Source: Thermoleophilaceae bacterium (GTDB lineage Bacteria; Actinomycetota; Thermoleophilia; Solirubrobacterales; Thermoleophilaceae). Taken from it: a stretch of 64,000 bases of DNA. The notes below the pieces were generated by a model. The model saw nothing but the letters and a program-made list of their open reading frames with translations, did not search any database and was not told the DNA's origin. Positions 490 to 11,166 of this stretch are shown here, piece by piece. How positions within the stretch are numbered: position 1 is the first letter of the stretch; each line of letters starts with the position of its first letter. Made by a program: the position numbers and the translations under genes. Location of the stretch: the NCBI GenBank assembly GCA_030447905.1, contig JAUJNZ010000005.1:140780-204779 (forward strand), given 5' to 3'.

Positions 490-675
490 TCAGTCGTGGG
501 AGCGGGCGAGATGCCTCAGGGCCGGCTTCGTACCGTCCACCTCGCGGCCGTTGATCCACACGCGCCCGCCCGGACGGAGCTCGGTCTCGAGCCGGCGGCG
601 TGCCGCCATGGTCAGAGCGATCGCGCGGCGACGCTCGTGGCGGCTCGGCATGCGCGTGACGGTTGAGGACTCCAT
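490..675 (-). CDS. Small basic hypothetical protein (61 aa)
   Basis: A short minus-strand reading frame of 61 codons. It starts at an ATG preceded at a suitable distance by a GGAGAAG ribosome-binding site; an in-frame GTG 11 codons further upstream is the alternative start. The N-terminal half is rich in Arg and Ala (HERRRAIALTMAARRR) and probably helical. The C-terminal half, GGRVWINGREVDGTKPALRHL, looks like a small beta-turn-helix segment. I do not recognise a family. It converges with the sirtuin gene and leaves a 43-bp gap. The RBS and the non-random composition favour a real gene, but it could be a spurious frame. Confidence 0.5.
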   Translation of the reverse strand: MESSTVTRMPSRHERRRAIALTMAARRRLETELRPGGRVWINGREVDGTKPALRHLARSHD

Positions 676-751
676 TTCTTGATCTTCTCCATTCGACGAC
701 CGCGCCACCTATGGCCGCAGGGCCATGATTCTCGCCGGCCAGCCTCGCCGT

Positions 752-772
752 GTGTCCCGTATGCGAGGACAC
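752..772. promoter_or_regulatory. Inverted repeat GTGTCC-N9-GGACAC in the 709-973 gap
   Basis: Two perfect 6-bp arms (752-757 and 767-772) are separated by nine bases, about 80 bp upstream of the small minus-strand gene. No good coding frame is visible from 709 to 973, so the segment is probably the shared 5'/3' region of the flanking minus-strand genes. The dyad could be an operator or a chance occurrence; I see no known regulator motif. Confidence 0.3.
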
Positions 773-973
773 TACGGCCGCGAGCTAAGGGAGGCGTGAA
801 CGGGCGGTAAAGAGTGGCCAAAGAATGAGGAACTCGCCACGCGTGCGGGGAGTCGAGATCGGGAGTCGGGCACCTCGCCACGGCACCGCTCCCGCTCAGC
901 GATCGTCGCCAGCCCCACACCGCGGTGAAGCGGCCTTCGGCGAGCCGACCGCTCGCCGGCGTTACCGCCGCCC

Positions 974-3484
974 CTACTCGCCGTGGGAGCGACCGCCGCG
1001 TCGCCGCGCGGGCAGCGAGCTCTTCGACGGGCGGCGGGACACGGAGGGGTTATCGATGGAGCCGAGCCGCTTGACCAGCTTGTACCAGTCGTCGCGCTTG
1101 AGGACCGGCGACCCCACGCCAGGCCGTCCGCGCCCGCCCGCACGACGGAAGCCGATGTGGAGGTGGTCGGCGTGATCGGCCATCTTGAGCGTCGGGCCGC
1201 CGATGTCGAACAGCGAGATGAGCTGTTGCGGCTTCATCGTCCCCGTCAGCAGCATCAGCCGCTTGATCGCCTGATAGGTCGGCCCGCCCCTCTGCTGGTT
1301 GCCGAGCACCGGCTGGCCGTTCCACCGCGAGATGTCGACCGCGTCGCCGGAGGAGTGGGCGGATACGTTGCCCGAGGTCGTGTAGTAGGAGTGACCGCAG
1401 CGCAGCGAGTTGACCGTGGGCCTGAGCCCGACCTCGGCGAGGTAGGCCAGTGTGGCGAGGACCTGCCGGCTTACCAGCCCCTTCGCGATGTCTTTGCGCC
1501 CGCAGGAGTAGATGTCGATGCGGTCGTCGCCGAGAACCCGCTTCTGCAGCAGGGGCTTGGCCATCAGGAGGATCTGGCCCACGGAGGTACCCCCTCGCAG
1601 GACGTTCTTGCCCGAGGCCCGATAGATCGCCGTGGCCTCGAGCAGCTTCCACCCGTCGAGCAGCGGCTTGGGATCGATCTTCGGCGCGCCCTTCCCCGCC
1701 GGGCGGACGGCGAAGGAAAGGTGCGGATCCTTGCCCTCGTCATCGCCGACGCGGCCGAGGATGGTGTCGCCCATCACCCGGGAGCCCTTGCGCAGCGGCG
1801 CGAGGCGGAAGTCGTTGGAGTTGAAGCCGCGTGTGTTCAGGAAGTAGCCCTCGAGCGACGCGGGGGTACCAGGGGACGCGAGCGGGTCGCCGCGGTAGGC
1901 GGCGAGCTGAGCCGCCCCGCCGGCCGCAAGGGCTTTCGGGCGGTTGGGATGGGCGAACAGGCGCTCCTTCACCACCGGCTCCTCCTGGAAGCGGGACCCG
2001 CCGGAGGGCGGCTGGCCCCCGGACGAAGGCGACGCTCCGAGCGCGGACGCGAGGCCACTGCCACCGTCCTTCTGGCGTCCTGCGCTCGCGGCGGCGTTCG
2101 GGCGTGGATCCCCCACGGTGAGCCCCGCCATCGACCGCGAAGCCTCGCGCTGGGCCTGCCTGCGGAACTCCTCCTTGGGGACCGGGTAGTGCGACGAGAT
2201 CGACCCGAGGTTGGCGTAGGTGAAGCTATTACCGAAGTTGTCCTGCAGGACGACGTAGCGCCCGAGCCGCTTGGACCGCCCGATCTTCTTGACTACGCCG
2301 TCGTTGACCGCGATCACCGGTGAGCCCTTCTTGGCGAAGAGGTCGATGTCCTTGCGGTTGGCGTTGTCCGACACCAGCTTGGCCGCGTTTTGACCCGGCT
2401 TGACGCGCTTGCGCGCCTGCGCCTCGGAGATGTCGTCGGCGTACTTCACCTTCCCGCGGACCGGGAAGCGCGCTTCGGCGAGCCCGGTGAGCGAGCCGAC
2501 GAGGTCGGGCGACATCCCGGCGATGAGGCGCGTGCGCAGCACGACCGAGTCGACGTACCAGCCTGCGTGGTTGTAGGCGAAGATCGCCTTGCGCATGTCC
2601 TTCGGCGCACCGGCGGCCTTGAGGTAGCGGGCGGCAGCGAAGATCGCGTCGACCGGGTTGTACGGATCCTTGCGCCCGTCCTCGTTGGCGTCGACGCCGT
2701 ACGCCTTCCAGGTCGCAGGCATGAACTGCATCCATCCTTGCGCCCCGGCCGAGGAGACGTTGAGGTTACGACCGTAATTCGTCTCGATCTCGTTGATCGC
2801 CGCGAGATACTCCCAGCGGATCCCGTACTCCGTGCCGGCCGCCTGGTAGATCGGCATCAGGAAGAGAGGGATCTTGAACTGCCGAATGGTGAAGTTCGGG
2901 ACCCCCCTCAGCGGGTCGCCCGGAGAGCCGTCGAAGTAACCGCGGGCCGAGGGAGTCGGAGCGCCTCCGGGCGTGCGCGTACGCCGCGGACGCGGGCGAG
3001 AGGGGGCGCGCCGCAGGCGCCGACCCTGACCCGAAGATCGAGGTCTACGCGGCCTCGACCGGCTCGACCTGGGCCTGCGCGGCCTGGGCCTCTCGGCCCT
3101 GGGCTTGCCGGGCTTGGGCTTGCCGGGCTTGGGCTTGCCGGGCTTGGGCTTGTCGGGCTTGGGCTCGCCGGGCTTGGGCTTGCCGGGAGGGACGCCCGCG
3201 CGTGGGGGCTTCTGGCCGCCGCCCCCGCCGGCGTTGCCCCCGCCGCCGGTGTTGCCCCCGGTACCGCGGCCAGGGAGGCGCGGGGGGACTGGAAGCTTTA
3301 GTCCTGGCGCCGCGGCGCCTTGAGGCGAAGCCCGGCGGCCGCCGCACTCCGGAGCCGTCGAGCCGCCGGCGCACGAGACTCCCGCAGGAGCACCCGAGCC
3401 ACCGTAGGCAGCGGTACCGATGACGAACAGGAGCCCTGCCAACAGGGCTCCTGCGATGGCCCCATAGATCGATCGGTGTCTCAT
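974..3484 (-). CDS. Secreted three-module cell-wall hydrolase: lytic transglycosylase + degenerate M23-like + M15/LAS-like peptidase (836 aa)
   Basis: An N-terminal signal/anchor helix (MRHRSIYGAIAGALLAGLLF) is followed by a long Pro/Lys/Gly/Arg-rich spacer with KPKPG repeats, about residues 90-195. An SLT goose-lysozyme-type transglycosylase domain follows, with catalytic Glu in AINEIETNYGR, then SAGAQGWMQFMPATW and AIFAYNHAGWYV. Next is a split M23-like fold (GSPVIAVNDGVVKKIG ... PHLSFAVRP) in which the usual His/Asp zinc ligands are replaced (TYANL in place of TYAHL). The C-terminal domain has SAHSSGDAVDIS and ADHLHIGF, the HxxxxxxD...HxH zinc pattern of M15/LAS D-Ala metallopeptidases. 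Inferred role: cutting both glycan strands and peptides of peptidoglycan outside the membrane. The 454 bases upstream contain two strong hairpins and may be a structured leader. The start is the ATG after a GGGAGCGGG stretch. Confidence 0.85.
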   Translation of the reverse strand: MRHRSIYGAIAGALLAGLLFVIGTAAYGGSGAPAGVSCAGGSTAPECGGRRASPQGAAAPGLKLPVPPRLPGRGTGGNTGGGGNAGGGGGQKPPRAGVPPGKPKPGEPKPDKPKPGKPKPGKPKPGKPRAERPRPRRPRSSRSRPRRPRSSGQGRRLRRAPSRPRPRRTRTPGGAPTPSARGYFDGSPGDPLRGVPNFTIRQFKIPLFLMPIYQAAGTEYGIRWEYLAAINEIETNYGRNLNVSSAGAQGWMQFMPATWKAYGVDANEDGRKDPYNPVDAIFAAARYLKAAGAPKDMRKAIFAYNHAGWYVDSVVLRTRLIAGMSPDLVGSLTGLAEARFPVRGKVKYADDISEAQARKRVKPGQNAAKLVSDNANRKDIDLFAKKGSPVIAVNDGVVKKIGRSKRLGRYVVLQDNFGNSFTYANLGSISSHYPVPKEEFRRQAQREASRSMAGLTVGDPRPNAAASAGRQKDGGSGLASALGASPSSGGQPPSGGSRFQEEPVVKERLFAHPNRPKALAAGGAAQLAAYRGDPLASPGTPASLEGYFLNTRGFNSNDFRLAPLRKGSRVMGDTILGRVGDDEGKDPHLSFAVRPAGKGAPKIDPKPLLDGWKLLEATAIYRASGKNVLRGGTSVGQILLMAKPLLQKRVLGDDRIDIYSCGRKDIAKGLVSRQVLATLAYLAEVGLRPTVNSLRCGHSYYTTSGNVSAHSSGDAVDISRWNGQPVLGNQQRGGPTYQAIKRLMLLTGTMKPQQLISLFDIGGPTLKMADHADHLHIGFRRAGGRGRPGVGSPVLKRDDWYKLVKRLGSIDNPSVSRRPSKSSLPARRRGGRSHGE
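3101..3188 (-). repeat. 15-bp tandem repeat encoding KPKPG spacer
   Basis: About six near-perfect tandem copies of a 15-base unit (GGGCTTGCCGGGCTT on the plus strand) lie inside the wall-hydrolase gene. Read on the minus strand each unit gives Lys-Pro-Lys-Pro-Gly. Single-base variants (TGTCGG, CTCGCC) give KPDKP and KPGEP. The period is a multiple of three, so slippage would change spacer length without breaking the frame. Such positively charged, proline-rich stretches are common cell-wall-spanning linkers. Confidence 0.85.
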
Positions 3485-3938
3485 CCCGCTCCCTCGACGT
3501 CCGTGTCCGGACCGCTAGAAGTGCGGCGCAAGCTAGCAGACCCCCCAGGCACTGGCGTCACGCTACTTGGTATGGGAAAGATCTGCAACAAGGAGGGTTT
3601 GCGCGAAAGAGTTCGTTCACCCAAGGGGCGATACGATGGGAATTCGCCCCTTATCGGCAGGCACGGTCGGTCCCTTCAACGATTTCCCGACGGCAACGGC
3701 CTCGACGGGCGGGCGATCTCTCGAGCGCCCGCCCGGCGGCCAGGGGGGTCCAGTCGCGCACTACGCGCGCCAGCCCTCGTCTCGCGTGCACAACCTGGGA
3801 CGTGGGCAAAAAAAGGGCACAAAAGGGGCGCGGTCTTCCCGGTGGTGTGGGGACGACAGGGCGTGCGCCTAAGGGTCAGGTAAAGGTTAGGACTCGGCTC
3901 GTGGCCGTCGGCAATGTCGGTTCGGATACGCTGCCCCC
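3485..3938 (-). promoter_or_regulatory. Long hairpin-rich leader/intergenic region upstream of the wall hydrolase
   Basis: This 454-bp stretch has no convincing coding frame. It holds two perfect 9-bp inverted repeats: 3623-3631 with 3644-3652 (12-nt loop), and 3707-3715 with 3726-3734 (10-nt loop, arms GGGCGGGCG/CGCCCGCCC). On the minus strand a T7 run and the fragments GGGACC and GGGGCGAAT occur. They loosely resemble pieces of the c-di-AMP (ydaO) riboswitch core, which in other actinobacteria precedes wall-hydrolase genes. The match is incomplete and the identity is a hypothesis. The plus-strand gene at 3939 must also draw its promoter from here. Confidence 0.4.
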
Positions 3939-4463
3939 ATGGATCCGGAGGCGTCCTCGGAGCGCGGGATGGTCGATCGCCTCTCGCGGCAGGGCGAGGA
4001 AGCTCTCGGTCGGGTCGTGGAGGAGCTCGTGGGAAACCCCGTGGTCGCGGGCGCGCTCTCACGGGCGCTCTCGGCCCGCGAGAAGGCGGTCCAGGCCCAG
4101 GAGACGGCCATGGGGGCGCTCGGAATCCCCTCCGCGGCCGACGTCGAGCGGCTGACGCGCCGGCTACGGTCGGTCTCCCAGCGGCTCGAGGGGGTCGAGG
4201 ACTCGCTCGACCGCGTGGAGGCGCGGCTCGAGTCCCTCGCCTCCGCCCCGGCCGGGAGCGAGGACGGGTGGACCGCTCACCTCGACGGGCGACTCGACGA
4301 AGTGGCGCGCGACCTGGCCGCCCTGCGCGAGGCCGTGGCTCCCGAGAGCCCGCTGCCGCCTCAGAGCCAGGAGCGGCTCTCGGTCGGACGGGCGGCCGCC
4401 TCCGGCCGGTCGGGCGGACGAGCGCGCGCTGGAGGGCCGTCGCGGTCGCGGCGGTCCTCCTAG
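3939..4463 (+). CDS. Coiled-coil, phasin-like small protein (174 aa)
   Basis: An acidic, Glu/Arg/Leu-rich protein predicted to be mostly helical. The N-terminal half (DRLSRQGEEALGRVVEELVG ... ALSAREKAVQAQETAMGALG) resembles the amphipathic helices of phasin/PHA-synthase-subunit-like proteins. It is followed by a heptad-rich segment (LTRRLRSVSQRLEGVEDSLD RVEARLESL) typical of a coiled coil. The C-terminus is low-complexity Arg/Ser/Gly. A second protein of the same style lies at 5288-5668, with the nucleoside phosphorylase gene between them on the other strand. No enzyme motif is seen. A surface protein of polyester granules or an unrelated coiled-coil scaffold are both possible. Confidence 0.7.
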   Translation: MDPEASSERGMVDRLSRQGEEALGRVVEELVGNPVVAGALSRALSAREKAVQAQETAMGALGIPSAADVERLTRRLRSVSQRLEGVEDSLDRVEARLESLASAPAGSEDGWTAHLDGRLDEVARDLAALREAVAPESPLPPQSQERLSVGRAAASGRSGGRARAGGPSRSRRSS

Positions 4464-4511
4464 GCGCCCCCCGCGCCCGGCCGGAAGCCACGGCGGGCTT
4501 GAGGCGGTGGA

Positions 4512-5276
4512 TCAGCGTGCGAGGGCTTTCTCGGTCGACAGGGCGGCGTAGGCCACCTCTCCCAGTCTGAGCCCCACGGCCTCGAGCCCCTCACGGGCGA
4601 TGCGCTCACGCGAGCGAACCGACGTGCCAGGGCTGGTGTCGAGCAGGTCGGACACGGCGAGCAGGGACCCCGCCCGCACCCCCCGCAGCTCGGCGAGGCG
4701 AAACAGGGTCGCCGTCTCCATCTCCACGGCGATCGCGCCCCGGGCCCGCCAGCCCTTGGCCTGTCCGGGCCGCTGGTCGTAGAACAGGTCGCACGAAGCT
4801 ATCGGTGCGGGGGCGCCCCAGGCGGCCCGAGCGAGGGCGGCAGTAAGCCCTCCGTGGGGGAGGACGCGCTCCTCGGCTCCGAGCGCCGCGCTCGTTCCGT
4901 CGGCCGAGATCGCCTCGCCCGCCACGATCAGGTCTCCGAGCTCGAGCGCGGGATCGAAGGCCCCGCAGGTGCCGATCCGGACGAGCGTGCCGGCGCCCAG
5001 GCCGATCAGCTCCTCGACTACGATCGCTGCGCTCGGCCCGCCCATTCCGGTCGACTGCACCGAGAGCGGCCATCCGTCCGGCGCCTCGCCGGTGTAGCCC
5101 CAGAGGCCGCGGTGGTGGTTGAGCATCCGAGGCTTGTCGAGTAGGTGCTGGGCGACCTGGAGAGCCCGGTGAGGATCGCCCGGCAGCAGGACTCGCTCGG
5201 CGAGTGGAGCCGCCGGCTTGAGGTGGATGGGAGACCCTCGGCGCGCGGCGGGCACCGCCGGGACGATATGGGACAC
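4512..5276 (-). CDS. Purine nucleoside phosphorylase / uridine phosphorylase family (NP-I, 254 aa)
   Basis: A full-length member of the NP-I nucleoside phosphorylase family. These enzymes split nucleosides with phosphate into a base and (deoxy)ribose-1-phosphate in cytoplasmic salvage. Visible family motifs are LLPGDPHRA near the N-terminus (phosphate and nucleoside contact), STGMGGPSA, VRIGTCGAF and the EMETATLFRLAEL segment that closes over the sugar. A SDLLDT segment stands at the usual base-recognition Asp position. The GDP...GMG...EME arrangement fits hexameric DeoD-like enzymes; uridine phosphorylase specificity cannot be excluded. It is divergent from the 5288 gene, with only 11 bp between starts. 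Confidence 0.88.
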   Translation of the reverse strand: MSHIVPAVPAARRGSPIHLKPAAPLAERVLLPGDPHRALQVAQHLLDKPRMLNHHRGLWGYTGEAPDGWPLSVQSTGMGGPSAAIVVEELIGLGAGTLVRIGTCGAFDPALELGDLIVAGEAISADGTSAALGAEERVLPHGGLTAALARAAWGAPAPIASCDLFYDQRPGQAKGWRARGAIAVEMETATLFRLAELRGVRAGSLLAVSDLLDTSPGTSVRSRERIAREGLEAVGLRLGEVAYAALSTEKALAR

Positions 5277-5287
5277 TGGGGCCCGCG

Positions 5288-5668
5288 ATGGCGAGGCGCC
5301 GGCCCACCCCCATGGACGTACCCGACGCGGTCCGCGATGCCGTAGACCGCACGGTTCAGGCCACGATCGGCTCCGCCCAGCTCACCCGCGGGCGCGCGCA
5401 GGAGGCAGTCGACGAGCTCGTCCGCACCGCCGAAGCCGGGGCGGGAGCGGTGCGGGAGGCGGTCGTCGGGGCCTTCGAGGAGCGCAGGCCGGCGACGAGT
5501 GAGGACATCAAGGAGCTCCAGGCCGAGCTCCGGCGGATCTCACGCCGGCTCGGGGCGATCGAGCGGCGGCTCGGCGACGGTGGCGGCGAGTCGAGCCGCT
5601 CCATGGGCGGAGCCTGGAGCGCGACCGCCCGCAGCGGGGGATCGGGCGGCGCGCGGCGCGCCTCCTAG
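5288..5668 (+). CDS. Phasin-like helical protein (126 aa)
   Basis: A small helical protein that starts MARRRPTPMDVPDAVRDAVD. The second Met is an alternative start. The segment VDRTVQATIGSAQLTRGRAQEAV is the type of sequence found in phasin-like and PHA granule-associated proteins. It continues into a predicted coiled coil (IKELQAELRRISRRLGAIERRL). The tail is Ser/Gly/Ala-rich and probably disordered. Its composition matches that of the protein at 3939-4463, so the two may be relatives or partners. Ten bases separate it from the downstream epimerase gene. The granule association is an inference from composition only. Confidence 0.7.
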   Translation: MARRRPTPMDVPDAVRDAVDRTVQATIGSAQLTRGRAQEAVDELVRTAEAGAGAVREAVVGAFEERRPATSEDIKELQAELRRISRRLGAIERRLGDGGGESSRSMGGAWSATARSGGSGGARRAS

Positions 5669-5677
5669 CCGTAGCCG

Positions 5678-6667
5678 ATGGCGGGCGGCCGCGTCCTCGT
5701 GACCGGGGTCTCGAGCTACCTCGGTACCGAGATCGCTCGAGCCCTCGCCATCGATCCCTCGATCGAGTACGTCGCCGGGCTCGATGATCGCCCGCCGCGC
5801 TCGCGCCTGGACGGAGTCGAGTTCATCGAGGCCGACATCCGGGGAGGGCGGTTGGGGGACCTGCTTCCCCGCGCCGGGGTCGACACCGTCATCCACAACA
5901 AGATCGTCCGTCGCCCGGGCTCGGGCATGTCGCCGCGGGCGGCCCACGAGATCAACGTGATCGGGACGCTCGAGCTCGTGGCCGCATGTGAGCGCTCCGC
6001 GAGCGTGGCCGCGATCGTCGTCCGCGGCTCGGCGGGGATATACGGAGCCGAGCCGGAAGCCCCCCAGTTCTTCACCGAGGAGCTCGCGCGCCTCTACCCG
6101 CTGCGCACCGGCTTCCAGCGCGACGTCGGCGAGATCGAGAACCTGTTCGGCGCGTTTGCCCGCCGCAACCGCGAGGTCGTCTGCACGATGCTGCGCTATC
6201 AGCCCGCGATCGGGCCCTCGCTCGACACTCAGATCACCCGTCTCCTGTCCCTTCCCGCCGTTCCCACTCCGCTCGGCTTCGACCCCCGGCTCCAGCTCGT
6301 GCACGAGCACGACGCGGTGGCGGCCACGCTCGCCGCGGTGCGGACGCCGGTCCGCGGCGCCGTCAACGTCGCCGGACCGGGCACGATCGGCCTCACCCGA
6401 CTCCTGCGCCGTGCCGGCCGGGCCGCCCTGCCGGTTCCGTCCCCGCTCTTCGATGTGGTGACCGCCGCGAGCGGCCGGCTCGGCCTCGCGAGCGTCTCCC
6501 CCGACCTGCGCCGGCTCCTGCGCTACGGCCGGGCGGTCGACACGACGCGCCTGACCGATGAGGTCGGCTTCACTCCCCGCTTCTCGACGCCGGACGCGGT
6601 CGAGGATTGGGCGCGCGCCCGGCGCGGGCGACGACTCGCCGCCGTCGGCGAGTTGCTCCCGGGGTGA
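5678..6667 (+). CDS. NAD-dependent epimerase/dehydratase (extended SDR family, 329 aa)
   Basis: An N-terminal Rossmann fold is clear: RVLVTGVSSYLGTEIARAL matches the TGxxGxxG dinucleotide-binding signature of extended short-chain dehydrogenases. DDRPP and FIEADIRGG follow at the cofactor-adenine positions, and NVIGTLELV aligns with the usual NVxGT helix. The catalytic YxxxK is not obvious; RGSAGIYGAEPEA stands at the Ser/Tyr region, so catalysis may be altered. The substrate is unknown. The stop codon overlaps the GTG start of the next gene (GTGA), implying translational coupling with the acyltransferase and a possible lipid or isoprenoid context. Confidence 0.85.
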   Translation: MAGGRVLVTGVSSYLGTEIARALAIDPSIEYVAGLDDRPPRSRLDGVEFIEADIRGGRLGDLLPRAGVDTVIHNKIVRRPGSGMSPRAAHEINVIGTLELVAACERSASVAAIVVRGSAGIYGAEPEAPQFFTEELARLYPLRTGFQRDVGEIENLFGAFARRNREVVCTMLRYQPAIGPSLDTQITRLLSLPAVPTPLGFDPRLQLVHEHDAVAATLAAVRTPVRGAVNVAGPGTIGLTRLLRRAGRAALPVPSPLFDVVTAASGRLGLASVSPDLRRLLRYGRAVDTTRLTDEVGFTPRFSTPDAVEDWARARRGRRLAAVGELLPG

Positions 6668-8147: not shown

Positions 8148-8804
8148 GTGCTCACTCGTGCGCGGCGCCGTTGGCACACTCGCCCGGCTTTGCCGGCCGT
8201 CCACCTCGACGACACCCTTCCGTGGGCGGTGACGTGGACCGTCGACGAGCCCATGGAGCGTTCGTCGCACGCCCTCGCCGCCGACGGGCGGGTGTGGCTG
8301 CTCGATCCCGTGGCCGACGAGGCCGCCCTCGACGCGGCCGAGGCCCTCGGCGAGGTGACCGCCGTCCTTCAGCTCCTCGACCGCCACCCGCGCGACTGCG
8401 CCACGCTCGCCGCCCGCTACGGAGTGCCGCATTATCTCCTCCCTCAGCGCGTGCCGGACTCGCCGTTCGAGGTCAGGCGTATGGTATGGCTGCCTGGCTG
8501 GCGCGAGGTCTCGCTGTGGTGGTCCGACCAGCGGGCGCTCGTCGTGGCCGAGGCCGTCGGGACCGCCTCCTACTTCGCCGTCGCGGGGCGGCGGCTGGGC
8601 ATGCACCCGATGCTCCGAGCCCTGCCGCCGGGCGCGCTCCGGCTATTCGCCCCCCGCGTCCTCCTATGTGGGCATGGGCGGGCGCTCCACGAGGACGCAG
8701 CGTCCGCCCTGGACGAAGCGCTTTCCCGTAGCCGCCGGGACGCGCCGCGGGCGGCACTCGCGGCGGTACGGGCTTTCTCTGGCGGGCAGGGCCCGAGCGG
8801 CTAG
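8148..8804 (+). CDS. Hypothetical protein, possibly a degenerate metallo-beta-lactamase fold (218 aa)
   Basis: I do not recognise this protein with certainty. It has alternating short hydrophobic strands and acidic loops. LLDRHPRDCATLAARYGVPHY and LLCGHGRALHEDAA recall the HxHxD and the later GH segment of metallo-beta-lactamase-fold proteins, but the full ligand set is not visible. The predicted start is GTG at 8148, eight bases after the SCP2-like gene, so it is probably the last gene of that operon. Its TAG stop codon coincides with the CTAG target duplication of the downstream insertion element. The element therefore inserted exactly at the end of the gene without changing the protein. 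Confidence 0.65.
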   Translation: MLTRARRRWHTRPALPAVHLDDTLPWAVTWTVDEPMERSSHALAADGRVWLLDPVADEAALDAAEALGEVTAVLQLLDRHPRDCATLAARYGVPHYLLPQRVPDSPFEVRRMVWLPGWREVSLWWSDQRALVVAEAVGTASYFAVAGRRLGMHPMLRALPPGALRLFAPRVLLCGHGRALHEDAASALDEALSRSRRDAPRAALAAVRAFSGGQGPSG

Positions 8805-8820
8805 GAGGGTCTAGCGAAAC
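8805..8820 (+). repeat. Left terminal inverted repeat of the IS element
   Basis: GAGGGTCTAGCGAAAC matches the complement of 11147-11162 at 15 of 16 positions. A further GCTAGC block lies inside both ends at slightly different spacing. The preceding CTAG is the target duplication and doubles as the TAG stop of the upstream gene. Confidence 0.85.
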
Positions 8821-8936
8821 TCGCTAGCCCGGTCGTGGTGCGGGATTGCGGGTGCGGGCGGATGGCGGTTACCCCAAGATCGGGGCGGTTTTACCCCAAC
8901 GGCTCATCGAGTGCATCGAGGAGTGGCGTCAGCAGT

Positions 8937-8956
8937 CCCCGCTCTTTGCGGGGTTT
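8937..8956 (+). terminator. Intrinsic terminator near the left end of the IS element
   Basis: CCCCGC, a five-base loop TCTTT, GCGGGG and then TTT form a compact 6-bp GC hairpin with a short T tract. Such terminators near IS ends commonly block read-through from outside into the element. Apart from this hairpin the 8821-9160 stretch shows no reliable coding frame and probably holds the promoter of the passenger pair. Confidence 0.6.
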
Positions 8957-9161
8957 CCCGAGACCGTTTACGCAAATCCCCTGCGTAACGCCCAAAACAG
9001 GCGTCGCTCCATCCGCTCACCGGCTCAGGATGCACAAAGCCCGCCCGGTTCCCACGCCCGGACGGGCCAAGTGCAAAGAGCTTCGGGAGTCGAAGCGAGC
9101 CTGACTGAGCAAGGGCCAGCCTCGCACGGCGCTCGGACGGACCGAAGGGAAAGGAAGTCCG

Positions 9162-9374
9162 ATGGCGGTGCCGGATTGGGTTCCGAAGGACCTCAAGAAA
9201 GACTTCAAGGAAGCCGAAAAGCAGGGATGGCGGTTCAAGAAGACCACGAACGGCGGTCAGGCGCTTGCCCCCGATGGGGTCAGCATCGTGACCTTTCATC
9301 TGACGCCAGGGCGCAACGCCAAGAGGGAGGTTCTGTCTAAGATGCGGGAATACGGCTATCGGCCACGAGCCTGA
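9162..9374 (+). CDS. HicA-like small protein (70 aa), passenger gene of the IS element
   Basis: The sequence KEAEKQGWRFKKTTNGGQ followed by ALAPDGVSIVTFHLTPGRNAK and KREVLSKMREYG has the helix-strand-strand-strand-helix layout of HicA mRNA-interferase toxins, a dsRNA-binding-like fold. The catalytic histidine of HicA, in the GSHHxF turn, is missing: NGGQAL stands in its place. It may be a non-catalytic relative or use another residue. An AAAGGAAG ribosome-binding site precedes the ATG. Nine bases separate it from the next small gene, as in hicA-hicB pairs. The toxin role is an inference from fold-like pattern and arrangement only. Confidence 0.6.
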   Translation: MAVPDWVPKDLKKDFKEAEKQGWRFKKTTNGGQALAPDGVSIVTFHLTPGRNAKREVLSKMREYGYRPRA

Positions 9375-9383
9375 GGGAGCGGG

Positions 9384-9701
9384 ATGGAGCACAGAGTTGA
9401 GATCACGATCTCCGAGCATGGCCGAGCCGCTGACAACGGCGACAGACTCCTGGGCGGGTTTCACGACCTCAGCCCAGAGGTGGACGCCGTGGTCGACCAG
9501 AACACCGAAACGGGGCACCTCACCGCCACGTTCTTTGTCGATGAGGAAGACGCTCAAGAAGCCGTGGAGAAGGGTGCCCATGCCTTTGCGGCCGCGTTGG
9601 TTCAGGCCAACTTGGAACTCACCCGGGTCATCGATGTTCGAGCCTCCCTCGTCTCAGCTGACGAGGAGGATGTGCGCGAGCTTGAGCCTGCTGGCGCCTA
9701 A
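9384..9701 (+). CDS. Unknown acidic protein (105 aa), putative partner of the HicA-like gene
   Basis: This protein follows the HicA-like gene with a good GGGAG ribosome-binding site. It is acidic. It begins with a predicted strand (HRVEITISEHG), then GGFHDLSPEVDAVVDQN, a strand (HLTATFFVD), and a long helix (EEDAQEAVEKGAHAFAAAL). It ends with a strand (IDVRASLVS) and an acidic tail. The layout and size resemble the partial RNase-H-like domain of HicB antitoxins, but I see no diagnostic HicB motif and no DNA-binding domain. It could instead be an unrelated ferredoxin-like small protein. It lies entirely inside the IS element. Confidence 0.6.
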   Translation: MEHRVEITISEHGRAADNGDRLLGGFHDLSPEVDAVVDQNTETGHLTATFFVDEEDAQEAVEKGAHAFAAALVQANLELTRVIDVRASLVSADEEDVRELEPAGA

Positions 9702-9815
9702 TTCCGCTTTCTAGAGCGGTTTTCCGTCCGATGCATGCCGTAGTCTAACTCCTACGGCAATCGAAAAAGCGACCCCCGCACGGTTGGCGCCGCCGGGGGT
9801 CAGGACCGAGGAGTT

Positions 9816-10935
9816 ATGGCCTCCCCGGACGGACCGACAGTACCACCGCGCTCGGCGGCTTCCGAGCTTCGCGTCCTCTTGGATTCCCCGGAGATTGCGG
9901 GACTCGTCTGCGATCTCGGAGACACGCGGTGGACCGGTCGCCCCGGCTACCCGCTCCGCGCGATGGTCGGCGTGGCGCTCGCCAAGAGCCTCTACAGCAT
10001 CCCGACATAGACCAAGACCGTCGCCCTCGTGCGCGAGCACGACGCCTTGAGGGAGGCCATCGGCGGCGAGTGCCCGTCCGTCTACGCCGCCTACCGCTTC
10101 GCCGCCAAGCTCCGCGCCTACTCCGACCTGCTCGATGGCTGCATCGCCCGCGTGCTGGATCGCCTGCATCGAGAGAACCCCGACTTCGGCCGCGATCTCG
10201 CCATCGACGCTTCGGACCTCCCGGCATATGCGAACGGCCAGCGCTACGTGTCGAAGGGCGGCCGCGAGCGCGAGCGTTTCCGCGAGCTGGGGCCACCGCT
10301 CGGCTGTCTCGACGCGCAAGGGTGGCGGGTTCTACGGGTTCAAGGTCCACGCCGCAGTCTGCGCCCGCACGGACCTCCCGGTCGCTTGGCGGGTAGATAC
10401 GGCCGGTAGCCACGAGTCCAACTACGTCGCGCCTCTGCTCGACGCGGCGAAGGATCGTGGCTTCGCCGCCGAGACGACGGCGCTCGATAAGGGCTATGAC
10501 CTTGGCCGGGTCTACGGGGAGTGCGAGGACCGCGACTCCCGACCGATCATCCCACTCCGCGAGACGCCCGACGTGAAGCGCGGGGCGGACAAGCCGCCGA
10601 CGTGCGAGCATGGCGAGTGGCGGTTCGCCGGTGCCGACCAACGGCGTGGAAAGACGAAGTGGCGGTGCCCCACCGGGGAGTGTCATCCCCGCTCACGGTG
10701 GATCAAGGCGGACCGCCTTCACCCCTTGGTCCCGCGCGAGTCGAAGCGCTGGAAGTCGCTCTACCGTGGCCGCGCCTCTGTCGAGCGCGAGTTCGGTCGG
10801 CTCAAGAATGAGTGGGCGTTACTGCCGCTCCGCGTCCGTGGGATCGAGCGGGTGCGGCTCCATGCCGATCTGACGATCCTCGCCAAGCTGGCGTGCGCGT
10901 TGGCGAGGGCACGGGGCGCTCCGCTCGCCGCGTAG
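9816..10935 (+). pseudogene. IS5-superfamily DDE transposase, interrupted by a nonsense codon and a frameshift
   Basis: The N-terminal part (YPLRAMVGVALAKSLYSIPT) runs into TAG at 10008-10010, where TGG (Trp) would fit the family, and then continues in the same frame (LVREHDALREAIGG). After KGGRERERF, near 10255-10290, the reading continues one frame on with SWGHRSAVSTRKGGGFYGFK and runs to 10935. DDE residues are visible: the Asp in IDASDLPAY, the Asp in ALDKGYD and the Glu in YRGRASVEREFGRLK, the last giving the exact Y-(2)-R-(3)-E-(6)-K signature of IS4/IS5 transposases. A Cys-rich insertion (CEHGEW ... CPTGECH) precedes it. Two independent lesions suggest decay, unless one is a sequencing error. 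Confidence 0.9.
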
Positions 10936-10956
10936 CTGCGCTACCGTCCCAGACCC

Positions 10957-11166
10957 GTGGCGGATCGGGTTTGGGTAGCCGATACATGTCCTGAGTGCGG
11001 CGGCACCGGCAGGCGGACTCTCCTGGGCGAGCAAGAGCACGTCGGCACGAAGGAAAGCACGGCGACATGCCCACCTTGCCACGGGGAAGGGGTCGTTGGC
11101 GCTCGCTGGGTGCTCTTCTCAGAACTCCCCGAGGGTTTCGCTAGCCGTTTCGCCAGACCCTCCTAG
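10957..11166 (+). CDS. DnaJ-type zinc-ribbon small protein (69 aa), passenger gene at the right IS end
   Basis: Two CxxCxGxG-like motifs, CPECGGTG and CPPCHGEG, make a single DnaJ-style zinc centre in a 69-residue protein. The last residues (RFARPS) are encoded by the terminal inverted repeat itself. The TAG stop is supplied by the CTAG target duplication, so the exact C-terminus depends on the insertion site. It starts at GTG 21 bases after the transposase frame. DnaJ cysteine-rich regions bind unfolded protein or act in redox reactions. Its job in a mobile element is unknown. Confidence 0.6.
   Translation: MADRVWVADTCPECGGTGRRTLLGEQEHVGTKESTATCPPCHGEGVVGARWVLFSELPEGFASRFARPS
11147..11162 (-). 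repeat. Right terminal inverted repeat of the IS element
   Basis: The complement reads GAGGGTCTGGCGAAAC, one mismatch from the left end. CTAG follows at 11163-11166 as the target duplication. Confidence 0.85.

Follow-up and report, generated by a model that had tools for sequence, protein, structure and literature searches.

Insertion sequences (IS) with passenger genes are a described class, the transporter IS (tIS; PMC7986276, PMC9330008). Tn3-family transposons carry several toxin-antitoxin (TA) families at a recurring place, which were gained by repeated acquisition (Lima-Mendez 2020, PMC7157771), and the toxin families given for them do not include one with a HicA-fold pair (PMC7157771). 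Tn7-like transposons carry defence genes as cargo (PMC8649781). In HicAB systems, the catalytic histidine of HicA lies in strand beta2 and is needed for RNase activity, and HicB combines an RNase H fold with DNA binding (PMC7180214).

Here we analyzed an element in a 64,000-nucleotide stretch of DNA (the window) from a Thermoleophilaceae bacterium, which harbors two small adjacent genes, A and B. Like tIS, the members of its family have terminal repeats that enclose one transposase together with unrelated passenger genes; unlike tIS, they share ends and transposase and exchange the passenger module in fixed slots, several of the modules being TA- or defence-like. As in the Tn3-family TA transposons, different modules are carried at one recurring place, whereas the transposase is of an IS1182/IS5-type DDE kind, the elements mostly measure 2-4 kb, and no resolvase was seen in an ORF and domain scan of the window's element. 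With Tn7-like transposons (PMC8649781) the family has in common that transposon ends bound variable cargo including defence-like genes, but it is far smaller and has a single DDE transposase. The pair itself resembles HicAB (PMC7180214) in that a small first gene of predicted HicA fold is closely followed by a second small gene, but A lacks the catalytic His and B, as predicted, does not share the RNase H-fold and DNA-binding make-up of HicB. We consider, with a probability of about 0.6, that a transporter-type IS carries the pair as a passenger and that the pair forms a TA- or defence-type module. An IS-borne TA pair had been regarded as new in an earlier note on this DNA; tIS and transposon-borne TA modules are already known, whereas the modular family with exchangeable cargo looks like a new variation on both, and the literature that could be searched (few subscription journals; ISfinder outside its scope) did not reveal an IS family that has a TA/defence slot of this kind.

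The element (Table 1) is a transporter IS, in which ends and transposase enclose passenger genes. That the pair is carried inside an IS, as had been proposed from the sequence, is borne out by a 20-nt inverted repeat with 95% complementarity (8801-8820 versus 11147-11166, each including CTAG), by the CTAG on both sides and by the DDE_Tnp_1 transposase downstream of the pair. Two subterminal TACCCC motifs (8870-8875 and 8892-8897) were recognized in the left-end block from an alignment of 17 left ends. A candidate ORF for a 69-aa CxxC zinc-ribbon protein (10957-11166) occupies slot 2 and extends into the right terminal repeat; its match to Pfam DnaJ_CXXCXGXG (E 3.6e-6) is below the cut-off, and sister elements have other genes at this place. 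When the flanks of the window's element were joined, no relative matched across the junction.

Table 1. Coordinates of features of the element in the window
Feature	Position	Strand	Remarks
Whole element, transporter-IS-like	8801..11166	+	2366 bp; CTAG target duplication at each end included
Conserved left-end block	8801..8898	+	CTAG + terminal repeat GGAGGGTCTAGCGAAACTCGC; 94% identity over 98 bp to left end of G002 element
Cargo slot 1, variable between elements	8899..9703	+	most elements without DNA similarity here, conserved on both sides
Conserved leader, two predicted hairpins	9019..9155	+	about 137 nt upstream of A
Gene A	9162..9374	+	70 aa; predicted HicA-fold protein without catalytic His
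Gene B	9384..9701	+	105 aa; partner of A, predicted ferredoxin-like fold
Terminator-like hairpin, then TTTT	9704..9719	+	directly behind B
GC-rich hairpin just upstream of transposase start	9771..9801	+	retained by 15 of the 16 transposase-bearing elements aligned
Transposase gene	9816..10935	+	DUF772 N-terminus, DDE_Tnp_1; broken
Cargo slot 2, variable between elements	10936..11128	+	
Conserved right-end block	11129..11166	+	two GTTTCG repeats + CTAG

As the earlier note had pointed out, two closely spaced small genes with ribosome-binding sites precede the transposase. Shine-Dalgarno-like sequences are located upstream of A (AGGAAG; 9152-9157) and of B (GGGAG; 9375-9379), and the two frames, both open in the window, are nine bases apart. 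A single-sequence model predicts for A a dsRBD-like alpha-beta-beta-beta-alpha fold (pLDDT 74). When this model was searched with Foldseek, HicA chains appeared at ranks 1, 2, 5 and 6 with E-values that were not significant, and with a second aligner (VIA) E. coli HicA 6hpb was the top match (Z 4.8, rmsd 3.0, 56 residues). Window A has no Pfam match and only a weak one to the PADLOC HicA-like model (E 0.015), for which its relatives reach E-values down to 5e-13; their matches to Pfam HicA_toxin (E 7e-6 to 7e-5) are below the cut-off. Profiles of A and B gave nothing convincing against solved structures. These weak but concordant signs suggest, at the level of prediction, that A is a divergent HicA-fold protein, and the HicA layout without catalytic His described beforehand is consistent with them. 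The catalytic His is absent in window A and in its counterpart from genome G001, and present in those of G005, G068 and a viral contig (L106). In an alignment read by eye, it is missing in about half of the wider pair family and, therefore, its loss is a feature not only of the IS-borne pair. Lacking this residue, A may be an attenuated toxin, a toxin that relies on a different active residue, or a regulator that binds RNA.

For B, a model of moderate confidence (pLDDT 73) predicts a beta-alpha-beta-beta-alpha-beta fold, with ferredoxin-like proteins as the best structural matches. Pfam and NCBIfam scans gave no HicB profile match, and a DNA-binding domain (HTH or similar) was seen neither in the model nor in those scans. 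A strict HicAB system was rejected on these two grounds, and a HicB-type fold is not supported for B, which the earlier note had likened to HicB in size and layout only. B also matched Pfam Flg_hook weakly (E 3e-4); this match was discarded, as it is below the cut-off and is repeated by no relative of B. The models thus point to a HicA-like protein with a non-HicB partner, and the likeness to TA pairs that had been claimed holds for the organization.

A homologous adjacent pair with 41-43% protein identity to A and B was found in G001, further adjacent pairs of this type occur in G005 and G068, and more distant ones in G271, G328, G325, G058, G089, G059 and G255. In total, nine or more genomes besides the window's own contain related adjacent pairs, as does the viral contig (65 kb), where the pair, found with the A profile, lies at 4986-5568. 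No relatives were obtained with the B profile among viral contigs, with single-protein queries among genome contigs, or in a protein search of phage and plasmid collections. In the viral contig, a gene for an XRE-like regulator (named by eye) follows the pair at 5732-5962, and in G068 the pair adjoins a tyrosine-recombinase-like gene (also named by eye). Because homologous adjacent pairs occur in other genomes and in a viral contig, A and B are, judging from homology, more than chance ORFs, and their presence in G005, G068 and L106 means that such pairs also exist apart from IS elements. As to the check proposed in the earlier note, to look for the same pair in elements with the same ends, the G001 pair adjoins a right end of the element family, although a left end was not found beside it at that locus, and the delimited sister elements carry other genes or none at the place of the pair.

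The transposase was classified by means of P0003, an intact relative from G019. Its nearest NCBIfam model is IS1182 (138 bits, E 4e-40; cut-off 270), and the best IS5 model gave 67 bits (cut-off 140). Accordingly, the label 'IS5-like' given to the element beforehand is only approximate, as P0003 is nearer to IS1182 than to IS5 and below both curated cut-offs, and the transposase likely represents a separate group related to IS1182. Among 217 genomes sampled across the phylum, with the window's own genome excluded, a comparable transposase was present in one. In the window, the transposase gene is interrupted by a TAG at 10008-10010 and by a small deletion or frameshift near 10290-10310. Since an intact copy was not found in the 95%-complete assembly of the window's genome either, these data suggest that the element is no longer able to move on its own. 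One might then regard the pair, too, as a decaying remnant, i.e. a captured HicA-like pair whose toxin is inactive without its His and which is as neutral as the dead transposase beside it. The broken transposase and the loss of the His in both the window and G001 would fit such decay, which we nevertheless consider unlikely: A and B have remained open with their ribosome-binding sites although the transposase is broken, the frames of the G001 pair are open at 41-43% identity and have outlived much substitution, and the many family members that lack the His, some of them outside elements, form intact pairs, which argues for a maintained His-free function.

Sister elements were searched with the left end and the transposase, and were counted if both ends could be placed. 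Including the window's element, 16 transposase-bearing elements with the same ends were obtained from 13 genomes (the window's and 12 others) of one order; each has one left end, one right end and one transposase between them, and at each locus the best left-end score was well above the next best. The 4-bp flanks match (CTAG or CTAA) in all elements except L066 (CTAG/CTAA). As CTAG also seems to be the preferred target, matching flanks by themselves carry less weight than usual. The elements have in common the transposase block and their outermost stretches, of about 98 bp on the left and about 40 bp on the right. When the window's element was compared to that of locus L036 (G002), identities of 94% over element positions 1-98, of 80% over positions 902-2113, and of 87% over the last 38 bp were determined, and there was no similarity between these three stretches. 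The 80% stretch starts at position 902, immediately behind the stop codon of B. Further element pairs showed the same pattern of constant and variable parts. From the left end to the transposase, the elements measure between 134 bp (no left cargo) and about 2.7 kb. The left slot is between 0 and about 2.5 kb long, the right one about 170 to 1430 bp. A TTTTTCCGTCCGA-like motif marks the start of the transposase block in the element alignments. The GC-rich hairpin in front of the transposase, which in L038 (G002) aligns in its 3' half only, could be a terminator against read-through or could control translation of the transposase. At L023 (G000:C13; 4684-5558), a tight cluster of related-element ends (two left, one right) encloses a small lysine-rich ORF and the remnant of a transposase, probably a nested or non-autonomous derivative.

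The cargo differs from element to element and is often encoded on the strand opposite to the transposase. Pfam identified DUF3800 (G019), an N6_N4 methyltransferase (N6_N4_Mtase) together with an Mrr_cat nuclease (G027), a PIN domain (G043), XRE regulators (HTH_3) in G269 and G075 and, as a weak match, a PAPS reductase (PAPS_reduct; G261). A RelE-like toxin with its partner (G002) and HEPN-like proteins were named by eye, and several cargo genes have no assigned family. A seventeenth, transposase-less element in the window's genome (G000:C25) carries a DUF2283 pair, in which DUF2283 was likewise identified by Pfam and its partner was named by eye; neither this partner nor the RelE-like toxin was confirmed by profile and PDB searches. 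In L069 (G340; 598-5387), a second transposase gene, IS66-like by eye, is located on the other strand in the left slot, apparently as the result of an IS insertion into the cargo. One uncharacterized protein family occupies different slots in the three elements that carry it, two elements have XRE regulators related to each other, and L038 has no left cargo. Repeated cargo exchange is indicated because families recur in different slots and elements and because L038 lacks left cargo. Further evidence of cassette exchange comes from the leader, which precedes two unrelated gene pairs: besides the window's element, only the one with the DUF2283 pair (G000:C25) and the HicA-like pair in G001 have it. 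Its predicted hairpins are slightly more stable than those of shuffled sequences (z -1.0 to -1.9) and one base pair is changed on both sides among the copies, which suggests an RNA structure. The leader had no match in Rfam, and a covariance model searched against 61 genomes retrieved none beyond the three copies from which it had been built.

The earlier note had also considered the pair as a possible transposition control. A would then bind the leader RNA or the transposase mRNA, and B would modulate this binding, so that the pair regulates its own element. The position of the pair immediately before the transposase, with both in the same orientation, the possibly structured leader shared with another element, and the RNA-binding type of fold predicted for A without a catalytic His would suit such a function. 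However, in elements with the same ends and the same transposase, the place of the pair is taken by unrelated genes, which often lie on the opposite strand, or is empty (L038); a terminator-like hairpin separates B from the transposase; and pairs of the family exist outside such elements, for example in G005, G068 and the viral contig. As the sister elements do without the pair, it is unlikely to govern their transposition, and we regard this function as improbable. That there is no true cargo-carrying IS, and that the genes were merely trapped by two independent nearby insertions or by a rearrangement, is similarly hard to maintain: although related-element ends lie close together and nested in G000:C13 and the broken transposase leaves recent movement of the window's element as a unit unestablished, two independent insertions would not repeatedly yield matching flanks, which 15 of 16 elements have, and each element has one left end, one right end and one transposase.

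The passenger-cargo reading thus accounts best for the locus. Comparison of the elements shows that a clade of DDE transposons (IS1182/IS5-like) keeps its ends and transposase block constant, while small modules, often TA- or defence-like, take each other's place from one element to the next in the DNA between left end and transposase and, to a lesser degree, in that between transposase and right end. The window's module consists of A and of B with its predicted ferredoxin fold, with a conserved leader before and a terminator-like hairpin of its own after it. A might bind RNA by means of its HicA/dsRBD-like fold and might be kept inactive or be regulated in a complex with B, and the pair would act, to the advantage of the element or its host and independently of transposition, as a module for addiction or defence. 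The fuller proposal, that these are cassette carriers, i.e. IS-sized DDE transposons of this bacterial order with fixed ends and transposase, two slots for the repeated exchange of TA/defence modules, and a new HicA-fold/ferredoxin-fold module that acts without the His, is put forward more tentatively, and we would rate it as somewhat less than an even chance.

If true, IS-sized elements can carry and trade defence and TA modules, which would partly account for the spread of these modules from chromosome to chromosome in the absence of plasmids, phages or large transposons. With their constant ends, the elements would also offer a route to new modules, namely to whatever sits between left end and transposase, and the pair provides a testable case of a HicA-type protein that has been retained without its catalytic residue.
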